Positions 9,186 through 15,247 of a stretch of DNA of 33,622 nt are shown here, in pieces. The stretch is from Flavobacteriales bacterium (GTDB lineage: Bacteria > Bacteroidota > Bacteroidia > Flavobacteriales > Flavobacteriaceae). Under the pieces are notes generated by a model that ran no database searches, was not told the origin of the DNA, and worked only from the letters and a program-made list of their open reading frames with translations. Every line of letters begins with the position of its first letter. Position 1 is the first letter of the stretch. The stretch is taken from the NCBI GenBank assembly GCA_027061855.1, contig JAMOVT010000077.1, positions 1 to 33,622 on the forward strand, in the 5' to 3' direction. A program made the position numbers and the translations under genes.

Positions 9186-9443
9186 TCACTTATATAAAAT
9201 CAGACCGACTGTCAAAATAAAAAGACTGATATATATTACCAGAATATTTTTCCAAAAGGGATGCGCCTTTTTCATCTCCATAAACTGAAAAGCTACCAGT
9301 AAAAATTTGATTCCGGCAAATATTAAGATTGCAATAGTGGCATAAAAAATATAAGGAGAATAATTGGAAAGTAATCCCGAAAGAAGAGTAAGGAAGTAGA
9401 GTATAATAATGGTATGTTTATTTGTTAATTTCATATGTTTCAT
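9186..9443 (-). CDS. norF: COX4-type small membrane subunit, NorF-like
   Basis: An 85-residue membrane protein with three predicted helices (about residues 11-28, 31-52 and 65-84). The loop motif FQFMEMKKAHPFWK resembles the F-M-E-x-K...H...W block of prokaryotic cytochrome oxidase subunit IV-type proteins, the family that includes NorF. It starts one base after the norE stop (TAAAATG). A second in-frame ATG at 9434 is an alternative start. NorF is an accessory, non-catalytic partner of NorE needed for full NO reductase activity in some denitrifiers. The assignment rests on topology plus position. Confidence 0.7.
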   Translation of the reverse strand: MKHMKLTNKHTIIILYFLTLLSGLLSNYSPYIFYATIAILIFAGIKFLLVAFQFMEMKKAHPFWKNILVIYISLFILTVGLILYK

Positions 9444-9444
9444 T

Positions 9445-10023
9445 TTAAAAAATCAGATATAATAAAGGGAAAAGCAATAGCCAAATTAAATCTACCATAT
9501 GCCAGAAGTGGGCACCTGTTTCAAAACTTTCCGGAGAAATCGGTGACTTAACGGATTTTAAACCTTTGTACATGAAAGCCAAGATGATTACCCCTACCAT
9601 TACATGCACCACATGAAAACCGGTTAATAACCAGTAAAAAGTGAAAAAAGAATTGTATTCCAATCCTATTCCGTGTTCTATTTTCTCATAGTATTCAACC
9701 CCTTTTAAAATCAAAAATGATATACCGCTTAAAATTGCTATTGCGGTATAAAATGATGCTTTCGTAAGATTATTTTTCTTTATAAATCTGACTGCTTCCG
9801 CCATAAAAAAACCTCCTGTGAGCAAAAAAAGAGTATTTATTACTCCGTAAGTGGAATTTAACATCAAGCGAGAAGAATGGTAAACTTCCGGATTACTTTT
9901 ACTACTGACCACCATTGCAATCAAGGCAATACCAAAAGTGAGGAGTTCCAACAATATAATAATCCAAATCAAAATTCCTCCGGGAGGATAATATATGTTT
10001 TTATAATTTATATTTTCTTTCAT
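9445..10023 (-). CDS. norE: Cytochrome c oxidase subunit III family protein, NorE
   Basis: A 192-residue integral membrane protein with five predicted helices (about 15-38, 58-80, 88-110, 127-152 and 172-192). The COX3 family motifs are GFHVVHVMVGVI (residues 135-146) and HFWHMVDLIWLLLFPLLY (172-189). Five helices, with the first two of canonical COX3 missing, is the NorE form rather than an oxidase subunit. Lying 2 bp after norD and directly before norF, it belongs to the NO reductase cluster. NorE has no metal centre; its role is support of NorCB activity or assembly. Confidence 0.88.
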   Translation of the reverse strand: MKENINYKNIYYPPGGILIWIIILLELLTFGIALIAMVVSSKSNPEVYHSSRLMLNSTYGVINTLFLLTGGFFMAEAVRFIKKNNLTKASFYTAIAILSGISFLILKGVEYYEKIEHGIGLEYNSFFTFYWLLTGFHVVHVMVGVIILAFMYKGLKSVKSPISPESFETGAHFWHMVDLIWLLLFPLLYLIF

Positions 10024-10025
10024 AT

Positions 10026-11807
10026 TTAACGTTTTATTTTTTCAAATAATAGCACCATTGCTTCAAGCAGTTCTTGTGGCGTACTCATAATTTTATATTG
10101 ATTTATTCCAAACATCTGCGGCAAATAATATTTGGCTTCGGCTTCAATTGCCAAAGCATAGGTTTGAATATTTTTCATTTTCAATTCTCGCAATGCTTGT
10201 TTTACATCCTGAATTCCATATTTTCCTTCGTATTTATCATAATCATTCGGTTTTCCGTCGGAAATTAAAATTACCCATTTGTTTTTTGCCTCTCTTTTTT
10301 CCAATAAGCTACCCGAATGCCGCATCGCAGTTCCTATACGGGTATAGCCTTGCGGTTCAATCTCTCCTATTTTATACCTGCCACGCTCCCATGTTTCATC
10401 AAAATCTTTGATTGTTAAATAGGTGGAATAATTTCTGGTTTTGGAAAAAAAGGCCTGAATGGAAAAATCCACACGATATTCATTCAGTATCTCTCCGAAT
10501 AAAATAGAAACCTGCTTTTCTATATCTATTACCCTGTTTCCGGCCACATACCCGTCACTGGAAAGGCTTATATCCAGTAAAATAAGCATGGAAATATCTT
10601 TTTCTGTTTTTCGTTTTGAAAGATAAATTTTTTCTTCGGGAGTCCGTTTGGTAAGAATATCCGTCAAATAATCGGTTACGGCATCAAGATCGAAATGTTC
10701 TCCTTCAAATTGCCTTTTTTGTTCGGTATATCTATTATGAATATTGGCCAACATCTTCCTCAGTCCTACTAAGACGGTCTTATTTTCAGATAAAGTATTT
10801 TTGTAATAAGAAGGATTTACTGAAAGAATATTTTTAGGATACAGTTTGCAATAGTCCTTTTTATATTTTGAGGTTTTATAATCCCATTCATCATAGGTTA
10901 AATATTTGTCTTTCGAAGATATTTCAGCACTTTCTGACACATTAATATTCTCTAAAAATTCGGTTTCATAAACCGAGTGCGTTTCTTCATCTGTTCTAAT
11001 CATACTTGACATGCTCAGTTCGTCCAAAGCATTCTTATGCGTTTCAAGCTCATCACTTCCATCAAAATCTTTCCAAATACCCCCTTGATGCTCCTCCAAG
11101 GTTTCTATTTTCTCATAATAATTATGAACCACCTGATCTTCCTGTTGTTTTTTATCCAATTGGCGAATTTTCATTTCCTCTACCCCTTTGAGTTTTAAGG
11201 TCGTCTTTATCTCTTCTTGAATCGCTTTTTTTACTTTTTCATTTATTTCTTTTAATGGATTGCTACTACTCTCATGGGTATTATTCATCCATTTCCCATA
11301 TAAAAATTTGAGCTGAGACTCCTCTTTTTTTTGGTTCCCGTTTTCAAAAAAATGAAGCATCCTTTTATGTATTTTTTCCATAGCAGGAAATTCAGAAAAC
11401 ATCTTTGCTAATACCAAAGGAGCCGTTTCAATGGCTTTTTGTCGGGATTTTTCCAAAGAAATTTCCGTATCATCAGCGTTCCAATTCAGAGCGGCTTTTT
11501 TTTGATAAGAAAGAAAAAGAGTACGGAAAAGATAGAATTCGAAGTTTTCTTCGTAGGAATCAAAAAACGCGGAATATGCCGGTAAAAAAAAGTTATTATT
11601 CTTGTAGCCTCCTTCTTCTTTGGCAATGAATATATCAATGGGCTCTCCGGTGATTGCTCGTGCCAGAACCATCATTCTGGTTTTAATTTTTTCCAATAAT
11701 ACCGTGGAGGATGAATTTAATATAGCCTCTTTATTTTTCTTTTCCAGCTTTTCTTTGCCTTTATAAAAACCGGCAAAGACATTTTCCAAAATCTCATCCC
11801 AACTCAT
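10026..11807 (-). CDS. norD: NorD, VWA-domain protein for NO reductase maturation
   Basis: A 593-residue protein with a C-terminal von Willebrand A domain (about residues 400-593). The MIDAS metal site is visible: Asp412-x-Ser414-x-Ser416 (DISLS), Thr489 in GYTRIG, and Asp517 in ISDGKP. The long N-terminal part is charged and acidic, as in other NorD/CbbO proteins. With the MoxR-type ATPase NorQ, encoded 4 bp upstream, it forms a chaperone pair thought to insert the non-haem iron (FeB) into NorB. Length is close to typical NorD. Cytosolic, no signal peptide. Confidence 0.92.
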   Translation of the reverse strand: MSWDEILENVFAGFYKGKEKLEKKNKEAILNSSSTVLLEKIKTRMMVLARAITGEPIDIFIAKEEGGYKNNNFFLPAYSAFFDSYEENFEFYLFRTLFLSYQKKAALNWNADDTEISLEKSRQKAIETAPLVLAKMFSEFPAMEKIHKRMLHFFENGNQKKEESQLKFLYGKWMNNTHESSSNPLKEINEKVKKAIQEEIKTTLKLKGVEEMKIRQLDKKQQEDQVVHNYYEKIETLEEHQGGIWKDFDGSDELETHKNALDELSMSSMIRTDEETHSVYETEFLENINVSESAEISSKDKYLTYDEWDYKTSKYKKDYCKLYPKNILSVNPSYYKNTLSENKTVLVGLRKMLANIHNRYTEQKRQFEGEHFDLDAVTDYLTDILTKRTPEEKIYLSKRKTEKDISMLILLDISLSSDGYVAGNRVIDIEKQVSILFGEILNEYRVDFSIQAFFSKTRNYSTYLTIKDFDETWERGRYKIGEIEPQGYTRIGTAMRHSGSLLEKREAKNKWVILISDGKPNDYDKYEGKYGIQDVKQALRELKMKNIQTYALAIEAEAKYYLPQMFGINQYKIMSTPQELLEAMVLLFEKIKR

Positions 11808-11811
11808 AATA

Positions 11812-12582
11812 TTAAATCAATAAATCGGTCAAATCTTTTAAAGCTTCTATAATCTCAGGTTCATCACTGAGGGGTTCTATTACCGCTACGTGTACGGATA
11901 ATCTTTTAGGCAAACCACTTTGAATTAATTTGGCAGCATCCACTAATAATCGCGTGGAAACGGTTTCCGACAACCCTATTTCTGTCAAGTTTCTTATTTT
12001 GGTTCCTATTTTTACTAATTTTGCTGCAATTTTAGGATCCACACCACTTTCATTGATGAGAATTTCTTTTTCGATTTCGGGTTTCGGATAAGTAAAACTC
12101 ATGGAAACAAATCTTTGTTTGGTAGAAGGTTTTAATTCTTTAAAGCCTCGCTGATAACCGGGATTAAAAGAGGCAACCAACATAAAATCCGGATGGGCTT
12201 TGATCCTCTCTCCTAATTTATCGATATATAATTCTCTTCGGTGATCCGTTAAGGGATGTATAGCTACAATTACATCGGGGCGTGCTTCGGCTATTTCATC
12301 CAAATAAATAATTTTTCCCTGTTTTACAGCACGCGTTAAAGGACCGTCAACCCAGACAGTTTCCGCTCCTTTAATAATAAATCTCCCTACCAGGTCAGTA
12401 GAAGAAGTCTCTTCATTACAGGCAACGGTAATTAAATCTTTATCGAGTTTCTCTGCCATATATTCTACAAAACGCGATTTTCCCGTTCCTGTGGGACCTT
12501 TTAATAAAAAAGGCAATTTATTTTTATAGGTCTTTTCAAAAACCTCTATTTCTTTTCCAATAGGGTGATAATATATGCTCAT
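11812..12582 (-). CDS. norQ: NorQ, MoxR-type AAA+ ATPase
   Basis: A 256-residue AAA+ ATPase of the CbbQ/NirQ/NorQ group. Walker A is GPTGTGKS (residues 29-36) and Walker B is IIYLDE (91-96). The stretch HPDFMLVASFNPGYQRG is the sensor-1 region typical of this group. It powers activation of NO reductase together with NorD, which follows after 4 bp. The gene is separated from norB by 91 bp containing a strong hairpin, the only sizeable gap in the nor cluster. Confidence 0.95.
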   Translation of the reverse strand: MSIYYHPIGKEIEVFEKTYKNKLPFLLKGPTGTGKSRFVEYMAEKLDKDLITVACNEETSSTDLVGRFIIKGAETVWVDGPLTRAVKQGKIIYLDEIAEARPDVIVAIHPLTDHRRELYIDKLGERIKAHPDFMLVASFNPGYQRGFKELKPSTKQRFVSMSFTYPKPEIEKEILINESGVDPKIAAKLVKIGTKIRNLTEIGLSETVSTRLLVDAAKLIQSGLPKRLSVHVAVIEPLSDEPEIIEALKDLTDLLI

Positions 12583-12605
12583 AATTTTTATTTAAACGGA
12601 AGTTT

Positions 12606-12636
12606 AAAAGAGATTGCAACTAGGGCAATCTCTTTT
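12606..12636 (-). terminator. Intra-operon hairpin between norB and norQ
   Basis: AAAAGAGATTGC (12606-12617), a 7-nt loop, and GCAATCTCTTTT (12625-12636) form a perfect 12-bp stem. On the minus strand the 3' arm ends in TTTT but no further U-tract follows, so termination is probably partial. It lies 37 bp after the norB stop and may protect the 3' end of a norCB transcript. Confidence 0.65.
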
Positions 12637-12673
12637 ATTGTTTCACACACTCACTATAATAAATATAGTATTA

Positions 12674-14005
12674 TTAATTTTCCAACGCCTCATCAGTTGG
12701 CAAACCATATTTAATAAAATTAATCATATATAAGATTAATCCGGTAGTTAAAATAGTGGCGCCGATGATTACTACCCAAAAATGCGGATAAAGTTTCTTT
12801 TGCACGTCTATAAAATCATATCCTAACATTCTTTCCAAGTATACCTGAGCCACACCGGCAGCAGCAAAAGCCGAGACCATAATAAAAATTCCGATATTGG
12901 AAAGCCAAAAAGCCAGTCTTCCACGCACATTGTCATAAAATTTTCTTCCGGTTAAATTAGGCATCGCATAAGTAATGATAGCAAAAACTATCATTGCATA
13001 GGCTCCCCAGAAAGCGAGATGGCCATGCATGTCCGTCACTAAGGTTCCGTGAGTATAAAGGTTTACCTGTGGCAATGTATGTGCAAGGCCTAATACTCCT
13101 GCTCCGAGAAAGGAAACAATTGCTGCCCCCAACGTCCAATAAATAGCCATCTTATTGGGGTGTTTTTTTTGTCCTTTTCTATACATATTTACCGCCCACA
13201 AAGTCATAGCCAAAAAAGCCAATGGCTCCAAAGCGGAAAAAATACCTCCCACAATCAACCAGATTTTGTTTACTCCTATATAATAATAATGGTGACCCGT
13301 TCCTAAAATACCGGATAAAAAAGTAAGCCCTATCACTACATAAAGCCATTTTTCTATTACCTCGCGATCCACACCGGTGAGTTTAATTAACAAGAAAGCC
13401 AAAATACCTCCCATTATCAATTCCCAGACTCCTTCTACCCAAAGGTGAACTACCCACCAGCGGAAAAAAGAATCTAAAGTTTGACTGTCAAATTGCAACA
13501 TACCCGGCAAATACAAAAGTGCAGCACCTACCAGCCCTCCGAATAATACCAAGGCAGTCGTGGTTTTTTTCTTTCCTTTGACAATCGTCATTAAAAGAAT
13601 TACAAGGAAAAGAATAACATTCAAAGCAACCAAATAATCCAATTCATGAGGAATTTCCAGAAATTTTCTTCCTTCCCACCAATTAAAATGAAAACCTGCC
13701 AGTGCAGCTACACCCACCACAGTTAAAGTAATCAATTGTATATAAGCCAAAAAAGGTTTCCATAGCTCGGTTTCGGCTTCTTCGGGAATAATATAATAGG
13801 CAGCCCCCATAAAACCGGCTAACAACCATACAACCAAAGTATTGATATGTACCGTATGAGCTGTATTAAAAGGAATCCATTTATGTAGTCCGTCATAACC
13901 CAGATGATCAAAACCCATGATAAAACCATAGGTCAATTGTATAGATAATAATAGCATAGATAAGGCCCAAAACCAGTATGCTACTTTTTGAGATTTATAT
14001 TTCAT
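12674..14005 (-). CDS. norB: Nitric oxide reductase subunit B, cytochrome c-dependent type
   Basis: A 443-residue integral membrane haem-copper-superfamily enzyme reducing 2 NO to N2O. Expected metal ligands are visible: haem b ligands His53 (TVHIN) and His329, haem b3 ligand His327 (MHGH), and FeB ligands His187, His238 and His239 (TGHH). Glu191 in HLWVEG is the NO-reductase-specific fourth FeB ligand, and Glu260 in SALEPL is also conserved. There is no N-terminal quinol-type extension and a separate norC lies 11 bp upstream, so this is cNor. About 12 helices are expected and length is normal. No cross-linked His-Tyr motif of oxidases is present. Confidence 0.96.
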   Translation of the reverse strand: MKYKSQKVAYWFWALSMLLLSIQLTYGFIMGFDHLGYDGLHKWIPFNTAHTVHINTLVVWLLAGFMGAAYYIIPEEAETELWKPFLAYIQLITLTVVGVAALAGFHFNWWEGRKFLEIPHELDYLVALNVILFLVILLMTIVKGKKKTTTALVLFGGLVGAALLYLPGMLQFDSQTLDSFFRWWVVHLWVEGVWELIMGGILAFLLIKLTGVDREVIEKWLYVVIGLTFLSGILGTGHHYYYIGVNKIWLIVGGIFSALEPLAFLAMTLWAVNMYRKGQKKHPNKMAIYWTLGAAIVSFLGAGVLGLAHTLPQVNLYTHGTLVTDMHGHLAFWGAYAMIVFAIITYAMPNLTGRKFYDNVRGRLAFWLSNIGIFIMVSAFAAAGVAQVYLERMLGYDFIDVQKKLYPHFWVVIIGATILTTGLILYMINFIKYGLPTDEALEN

Positions 14006-14016
14006 AGTGATAATTT

Positions 14017-14457
14017 TTAGTCGTTAGATTTCATTAAGTCCTTTGATAAAGGCGATACTTTCCGGTCGACCTTTTCAAAGCCGTTGAGGTCTTTATTGCC
14101 AATCCATTTGAAAAAAGCTATCAAATCATCAGCTTCTTCTTCAGAAAAACCATAGGCAACCATTTTTCTTCCTTTTGGATTCCAAGGAGTAGGAGATACC
14201 AAAACGGATTTTACATAGGGTTCTCCCCTACGGTCTATTACACGGGTTAACTCCGGAGCATAATAAGCCCCTTCTCCCATTATTGTATGACATCCCATAC
14301 AATTGTTTTTCTCCCAAAGATGTTTTCCGGATGCTACATCCTGAGGAATATCAGTCCTAACTTGCTTCAGCGAGTATATTGTCAAAGCGATAAATATCGC
14401 AAATGTGACAAAAGTTCCCACTAAAAAGAACATTTTTGCTTGTTGTTTTGTGAACAT
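14017..14457 (-). CDS. norC: Nitric oxide reductase subunit C, cytochrome c
   Basis: A 146-residue membrane-anchored c-type cytochrome that passes electrons to NorB. It has a single N-terminal helix (about residues 9-30) and a periplasmic haem domain with Cys53-x-x-Cys56-His57 (CMGCH). Met99 in GRKMVAYGF is the likely sixth haem ligand. The segment HTIMGEGAYYAPELTRV is a NorC hallmark. It is the first gene of the operon; a candidate promoter and palindromic operator lie directly upstream. Confidence 0.95.
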   Translation of the reverse strand: MFTKQQAKMFFLVGTFVTFAIFIALTIYSLKQVRTDIPQDVASGKHLWEKNNCMGCHTIMGEGAYYAPELTRVIDRRGEPYVKSVLVSPTPWNPKGRKMVAYGFSEEEADDLIAFFKWIGNKDLNGFEKVDRKVSPLSKDLMKSND

Positions 14458-14483
14458 AATAAATTAATTTTGGTTAAATAATT

Positions 14484-14503
14484 AAAAGACTAATTAATCT
14501 TTT
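14484..14503. promoter_or_regulatory. Palindromic operator candidate upstream of norC
   Basis: A 20-bp inverted repeat centred between 14493 and 14494; 18 of 20 bases are symmetric, the only mismatch being 14490 against 14497. The core half-site reads AAGA(C/T)TAA. It lies 26 bp before the norC ATG, just downstream of the -7-like element, where a bound protein would block transcription. The AAGAT...ATCTT ends resemble NsrR sites of other phyla. The adjacent Rrf2 protein is the natural candidate ligand (inference). Confidence 0.55.
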
Positions 14504-14510
14504 ATATTCA

Positions 14511-14518
14511 CAAGTTTA
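14511..14518 (-). promoter_or_regulatory. Probable -7 element of the nor operon
   Basis: The minus strand reads TAAACTTG, one mismatch from TAnnTTTG. No TTG is found at 19 bp, so the promoter would be weak without help. Transcription would begin at or inside the palindrome at 14484-14503. Confidence 0.4.
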
Positions 14519-15053: not shown

Positions 15054-15079
15054 AGAAAAAATCAGTAATAAAATATGAT

Positions 15080-15247
15080 TTAATCTTCTTTTGCAAAATG
15101 AATGATAATCAAAAGCAAGCTCAACAAAAAGAAAAAAATAGCTGCGTATAAAACATAATTCATATATGGCCAACCTACAAAATCTCCAATAGATGCAATC
15201 AAAAATAATTGAAGACTGAATGCAATAAAAAGTTTCACTTTTTTCAT
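15080..15247 (-). CDS. Small two-helix membrane protein, 55 residues
   Basis: A complete reading frame from an ATG at 15247 to a TAA at 15082-15080. It starts MKKVKLFIAFSLQLFLIA and ends in HFAKED. Two hydrophobic helices (about residues 6-19 and 32-51) are joined by a short loop GDFVGWPYMN; the N-terminus is basic and the C-terminus charged. It begins 11 bp after the dgt stop on the same strand and ends 51 bp before the Rrf2 gene. The clean alternation of basic end, helix, loop and helix argues for a real gene. I do not recognise the family. It may travel with dgt or be an accessory to the nor block. Confidence 0.6.
   Translation of the reverse strand: MKKVKLFIAFSLQLFLIASIGDFVGWPYMNYVLYAAIFFFLLSLLLIIIHFAKED

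Follow-up and report, generated by a model that had tools for sequence, protein, structure and literature searches.

What controls the nor operon of this Flavobacteriales bacterium, and is the palindrome at its head the operator of the Rrf2-type regulator encoded next to it? The window considered here (the whole stretch of 33,622 nucleotides that was analysed) carries on its minus strand norC (14017-14457), encoding the cytochrome c subunit and named by a Cytochrom_C match and its place before norB, followed by norB for the catalytic subunit (12674-14005; COX1 match), norQ for an AAA protein (11812-12582; AAA_5 and CbbQ_C matches), a norD-like gene with a VWA domain (10026-11807; VWA match), a norE-like gene of the COX3 family (9445-10023; COX3 match) and, at the operon end, a gene for a COX4-type small membrane protein (9186-9443; COX4_pro match). 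In minus-strand order, the latter is followed by rplM, which was named by eye. As stated in the original prediction, an Rrf2 gene with Cys92, Cys99 and Cys105 lies directly upstream of norC on the same strand (15028-14567; 153 aa; assigned by Pfam, NCBIfam and predicted fold). Its neighbours are norC and dgt, with no isc/suf operon adjoining. Our comparison of related loci suggests that the palindrome is probably the operator of this upstream-encoded Rrf2, which would belong to a Bacteroidota group of probable Fe-S repressors of NO-making and NO-removing genes.

A conserved palindrome at the head of the nor operon

The rrf2-norC gap of the window measures 109 bp and contains the palindrome TAAAAGACTAATTAATCTTTTA (14483-14504; no strand assigned), a 22-mer with 10 of 11 pairs symmetric that we propose as the Rrf2 operator. 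It had been predicted as a 20-bp palindrome with 18 symmetric bases, and this 20-mer is indeed found at 14484-14503, within the longer form. The core AAAGAY-N6-RTCTTT occupies 14485-14502, and the end of the 22-mer lies 25 bp from the norC ATG (14457). Read toward norC on the minus strand, the order of elements is an FNR/DNR-like site, ATGATTTTTATCAT (14554-14541; centred 54 bp upstream of the midpoint of the palindrome), a TAnnTTTG-like promoter element, TAAACTTG (14518-14511; one mismatch, with a counterpart at the same place in aligned gaps), the palindrome and the norC ATG, so that the predicted position between promoter element and start codon holds as well.

Symmetry alone is weak evidence for function, because the window contains three 22-mers with 10 of 11 symmetric pairs (mean 0.88, range 0-4, in 25 dinucleotide shuffles) and shuffling the 109-bp gap 3000 times also yields such a 22-mer in 25 cases. 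The two further 22-mers of this kind are found at 1752-1773 and at 12719-12740, the latter inside norB. The palindrome thus exceeds chance barely by its symmetry and clearly by its conservation. Among the 19 loci with rrf2 directly 5' of norC, 18 orthologous gaps carry AAAGAY-N6-RTCTTT with at most one mismatch, just 3' of a TAnnTTTG-like element; the remaining one, L164, has what by eye appears to be an AAATAC...GTATT variant. Missing conservation in such gaps, originally named as grounds for refutation, is hence not what the loci show. Across the 18 gaps, the left TA-AA.. and right ..TCTTTTA letters are invariant and the inner G/C letters slightly variable, whereas the A-rich 6-bp spacer varies more than the half-sites. 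A TAnnTTTGC-like element is present at -15 to -7. The conserved half-site in the aligned gaps is AAAGAY (long form TAAAAGAY). This partly revises the half-site AAGA(C/T)TAA given originally, which had been described as only partly resembling NsrR sites: the operator is unlike the published NsrR box, and the TAA belongs to the spacer.

The same picture emerges when all 28 genomes of the family with norC are considered. The site at the operon head is good (at most one mismatch) in 21 of these, 17 times before norC and four times before nirK; in the latter four genomes (L346-L349), nirK, two unnamed genes and norC stand in a row, with norC fourth and the site before nirK. Six genomes have a degenerate site, namely L014, L020 and L032 with two mismatches, L021 with a weak one, and L016 and L028 with an AGGAY-N6-RTCCT type. 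One genome (G016, locus L027) has none. G016 is also alone among the 28 in having no rrf2 match at E 1e-10; by profile, it holds a distant Rrf2 at 2.5e-12. Its FNR-like box is kept, the genome is 91% complete, and the co-loss of palindrome and close rrf2 is one case.

Another 21 norC loci were compared, from genomes that each hold a relative of rrf2 (1e-25 or better). Here norC is preceded by a site with no more than one mismatch in six of six loci from the same family and in five of 15 from other families. Ten loci outside the window's family lack it (L282, L286, L288-L292, L314, L317 and L322). In three of these (family f18), an rrf2-rrf2-norC cluster is preceded by an exact site instead, and in two more (genomes G318 and G504) an exact site stands beside rrf2 rather than before norC. 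Such tandem clusters (L238, L241 and L253) come from a family of another class, with an exact operator of 22 bp located 72 bp ahead of the leading rrf2 gene.

The FNR-like box was assessed together with the palindrome in 30 regions upstream of norC matches in the window's family, a set which includes two distant cytochromes that are not norC (L041 and L042) and L014, whose start was wrong and which has two mismatches when redone. With at most one mismatch, the box is present in 22 of the 30 (3.3% of shuffles) and the palindrome core in 17 (0.75% of shuffles); where the two follow each other in this order, the distance from centre to centre is mostly 49-63 bp.

The spacer is fixed and the site often accompanies rrf2

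In the intergenic sequence of 80 named rrf2 loci, which span Tenacibaculum, Aquimarina, Flagellimonas/Muricauda, Lutibacter, Yeosuana, Winogradskyella and many MAGs, the motif with a spacer of 6 has 37 exact matches, as against none for each of the spacers 3, 4, 5, 7, 8 and 9 and the reversed motif. With one mismatch allowed, the numbers are 73 versus 2 to 11 for the controls. Coding sequence of the same loci contains two exact motif matches versus 0-7 exact control matches. By locus, an intergenic site with at most one mismatch is present in 55 of the 80 and absent in 25, and the siteless loci include those of the closest relatives of the window Rrf2 (L144, L145, L147, L148, L150, L151 and L152).

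Similarly, the 220 bp upstream of 90 rrf2 genes of the family contain the spacer-6 motif in 39 cases (seven exact), compared with 0-6 (none exact) for spacers 2-5 and 7-10 and the reversed motif; 29 of the 39 sites fall at -40 to -60. The 39 genes with a site all come from the higher-scoring group of 72. None of the 18 lower-scoring genes has an 18-mer site at one mismatch within 220 bp upstream, and an exact 16-bp core, AAGAY-N6-RTCTT, stands at about -60 in three of them. Of another 49 rrf2 loci, 19 have the spacer-6 motif (11 exact) versus 0-2 (none exact) for the controls, and here the full 22-bp form also occurs in a family of another class. An Rrf2 match at 1e-25 is present in 165 of 296 genomes of the phylum; 26 loci from these (L228-L253) and 23 others, five of which repeat loci of the family set, make up the 49. 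Among seven distant Rrf2 control loci, one (L311) has a match at one mismatch and the other six have none.

The two closest named relatives of the window Rrf2 (82 and 81% identity, in L144 and L145) are encoded next to rplM, and both the nor operon and the palindrome are missing between the two genes. The operator thus comes and goes with the nor operon, and rrf2 is kept in these loci without nor. Among close relatives, the stretch between rrf2 and rplM either contains the nor operon plus operator (the counterpart of window positions 9186-14457) as one block or lacks both. Taken together, the comparison of loci indicates that the palindrome is very probably the landing site of the Rrf2 repressor encoded beside it, and as an operator it appears well supported.

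A genome-wide scan for the motif, which had been suggested as a check, was less discriminating. The extended 22-mer has matches in 28 of 199 family genomes versus 35 for the reversed control, so raw counts do not rise above background; the best places in these 28 genomes are intergenic in 21 cases and inside ORFs in seven. In the window's own 2.04-Mb assembly, the extended form TAAARGAY-N6-RTCYTTTA occurs a single time, at the window palindrome. When two mismatches are allowed, the 22-mer has 40 matches versus 50 for the reversed control. Exact 18-mers number five in this assembly, and of the other four, three are inside ORFs and one (L077) lies in a gap between HU-like and MutY-like ORFs, where it is probably due to chance. 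By these two scans (exact 18-mers, and 22-mers with up to two mismatches), no second target site is demonstrable in the window's assembly.

The regulator resembles IscR in its putative cluster ligands

The protein encoded upstream of norC belongs to the Rrf2 superfamily by profile (PF02082, 69.9 bits against a cut-off of 30; TIGR00738, rrf2_super, 75.8 against 73.3), and its AlphaFold2 model shows a winged-helix Rrf2 fold (mean pLDDT 85.9), for which the best structure matches are CymR (Z 14.4), IscR (14.0), RsrR (13.2) and NsrR (12.9). Cys92, Cys99, Cys105 and His108 are invariant in all 90 family proteins and form the pattern C-X6-C-X5-C-X2-H. IscR binds its cluster through Cys92, Cys98, Cys104 and His107, while S. 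coelicolor NsrR uses three Cys plus Asp8 of the partner chain (PMC5411485). The window Rrf2 and IscR share the arrangement C-X5/6-C-X5-C-X2-H, the first loop of the window Rrf2 being one residue longer than that of IscR, and we infer from these residues an IscR-like ligand set in which His108, placed like His107 of IscR, is the candidate ligand besides the three Cys. The original prediction placed a Tyr at the Asp8 position of NsrR. This was one residue off, as Lys7 rather than Tyr8 aligns there. It further proposed a Bacteroidota-specific NO regulon with its own operator and its own mode of cluster ligation; comparison bears out the operator and a gene set for NO and denitrification, whereas the ligand pattern points to the known IscR type.

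At the Asp8 position, Lys is found in 62 of the 72 higher-scoring family proteins and Glu in 17 of the 18 lower-scoring ones. RsrR has Glu8, which the Glu of these paralogues resembles. About 11 of the 18 lower-scoring rrf2 genes precede a ytfE-like gene (by eye). In this second Rrf2 line (Glu7; L127-L140), where a ytfE/RIC-like gene often comes next, related palindromes lie near -60, for example ATTAAGATAAATTTGTCTTAAT and AGGAT...TCCT forms.

The window Rrf2 is distinct from the named members of the superfamily. It shares superfamily, fold and the three cysteines with the NO-sensing repressor NsrR of Streptomyces, E. coli and Neisseria, and the published NsrR regulons include nor, nir and RIC/ytfE, like the targets predicted here (PMC1274295). 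However, the NsrR operator given in the cited passages of that work, gATGyAT-N5-ATrCATc, differs from AAAGAY-N6-RTCTTT; Lys7 stands in place of Asp8, and His108 in place of Lys in E. coli NsrR or Arg in S. coelicolor NsrR. With a score of 24.1 bits, far below the cut-off of 182 of the NCBIfam NsrR equivalog, identity with NsrR is ruled out by model score, Lys7 and operator. IscR, a [2Fe-2S] protein that regulates Fe-S assembly, is the best PDB sequence match and among the top fold matches, yet its context is isc rather than denitrification, and identity with IscR is ruled out by this gene context and by the equivalog score (38.3 bits against 207.55). Of the other Rrf2-type Fe-S regulators, RsrR has the same fold in a different gene context, and RirA likewise differs in context (31.4 bits against a cut-off of 193).

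Predicted target genes concern nitrogen oxides

The genes behind the sites define a recurrent set. Within the named loci, a site stands before norC in 17 of the 21 loci that hold norC, and sites face rrf2 itself 32 times, RIC/ytfE five times and nrdG (named by eye) five times, a tally in which 24 labels stayed without name. Family-wide 22-mer matches precede nrdG (L254, by model; L271 and L281, by likeness), RIC-like genes (L255, L261 and L263), nirK (L262, L276 and L279, by model) and norC (L260, L269 and L273), or lie upstream of rrf2 (L256, L265, L274 and L280). There are nirK, nrdG and RIC genes that have a site and no adjoining rrf2, and in L157 and L297 sites are followed by genes for cytochrome cd1 (nirS type). 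A gene beside rrf2 in L050 and others looks like nrdD by eye, but the one protein tested gave no Pfam or NCBIfam match at the limits used, and the name is not upheld here.

A nosZ-like gene is present in 21 of the 90 rrf2 loci of the family, and 14 of these 21 have a site no more than 220 bp upstream of rrf2; at nosZ-bearing loci, rrf2 and a cytochrome c gene of the nosZ cluster often point away from each other. NCBIfam assigns the four nosZ-like proteins tested to the Sec-dependent nitrous-oxide reductases. A metagenome study of 2018 described scaffolds with Rrf2 genes next to clade II nosZ and called the role of these genes difficult to predict; two of the Rrf2 queries used in its searches derived from a Flavobacteriales strain (PMC6264515). 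The nosZ neighbourhood of those genes is the same as here, and the cited passages of that paper name no operator. Among the matches listed from the open-access literature, none reports an operator for a Bacteroidota Rrf2.

Genes for other functions also occur at some sites. Quinolinate synthase (nadA) is often encoded divergently from rrf2 with the operator in the common gap (15 sites; for example L190, L193, L205, L210 and L218). In L296 (G128), a relative without norC, a 22-mer with one mismatch stands about 260 bp before ccoN of the cbb3 oxidase.

Proposed mechanism and alternative explanations

The best reading of the locus comparison is that Rrf2 would work like NsrR, repressing genes for NO and denitrification. 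If the -7 element is right, transcription would start at about the beginning of the palindrome. A holo dimer of Rrf2 on AAAGAY-N6-RTCTTT would then occupy the norC promoter from about +1 to +22, blocking transcription, and the FNR-like box would lie near -42. NO is predicted to damage the cluster, upon which Rrf2 would release the DNA and allow expression of the nor operon, with an activator of FNR/DNR type at about -42 contributing. This location is the usual place of a class II activator. The most likely logic of the promoter, as judged from its elements, would therefore combine FNR/DNR-type activation with relief of Rrf2 repression by NO. Predicted targets of the repressor are nirK or nirS, norCBQDE, the nosZ cluster, RIC/ytfE, nrdG (anaerobic ribonucleotide reductase) and, often, rrf2 itself.

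A related possibility is that Rrf2 binds the palindrome and responds to Fe-S status, oxygen, iron or redox, as IscR and RsrR do, and not to NO; the denitrification genes would then be switched by anaerobiosis or cluster supply. The resemblance of C-X6-C-X5-C-X2-H to the Cys3His set of IscR, the Lys7 in place of the NsrR Asp8, the nadA and ccoN genes (not NO genes) at some sites, and the retention of rrf2 without a nor operon in L144 and L145 all speak for such a signal. Yet the genes that recur at the sites (norC, nirK, nirS, the nosZ cluster and RIC/ytfE) have to do with nitrogen oxides or with the damage these cause, and no isc/suf genes were seen at annotated sites, many of whose neighbours carried no name. 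We consider this explanation unlikely.

A further reading, that the palindrome is bound by a different factor such as a CRP/FNR-type regulator (DNR, HcpR) and that rrf2 is merely a neighbour, appears very improbable. Denitrification genes are commonly under DNR or NnrR (PMC1274295), these regulators and HcpR serve the same target processes, and the nor promoters have a conserved FNR-like box as well. However, they form another protein family, and the boxes TTGAT-N4-ATCAA described in the cited passages (PMC1274295) have GA-N6-TC spacing, which ATGATTTTTATCAT fits, whereas the palindrome has GA-N8-TC. Binding of the palindrome by CRP/FNR proteins is thus rejected on spacing, the FNR-like box being a separate site. 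In addition, the palindrome occurs upstream of rrf2 with varied neighbours, and G016 (without a close rrf2) keeps the FNR-like box and lacks the palindrome. Two last readings of the palindrome, as an inverted repeat of AT-rich sequence that arose by chance or as an RNA hairpin of a terminator or leader, are scarcely credible: the minus-strand RNA does fold at -7.3 kcal/mol (z -2.7), but the stem is A/U-rich and not of the terminator type, half-site letters (rather than pairing) are kept across species with the spacer fixed at 6, and the site also precedes divergent rrf2 and nirK and nrdG genes without rrf2 in front.

Returning to Rrf2 as an NO-responsive repressor, the data would also fit a wider scheme for which we see roughly balanced chances, namely a phylum-wide Bacteroidota nitrogen-oxide regulon under an IscR-like Cys3His Rrf2 with an NsrR-like job and a distinct, compact operator. 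It would comprise a Lys7 line (nor/nir/nos) and a Glu7 line (often RIC/ytfE) with related operators; at nor promoters, a repressor that blocks just downstream of the start would act together with an activator of FNR type at about -42. Many Bacteroidota have Sec-type (clade II) nosZ, nirK and nor genes, and a defined operator together with a regulator gene offers a handle on their switching. If true, Rrf2 would also illustrate how a signal can be sensed by a cluster site with a conserved His, with Lys replacing Asp8.

Rrf2 of the window could additionally act on its own gene. A weak candidate site, GAAGATTAAATCATATTT (15071-15088, minus strand; two mismatches), precedes rrf2 and makes autoregulation possible, and many other rrf2 genes have a better site than this one at about -40 to -60.
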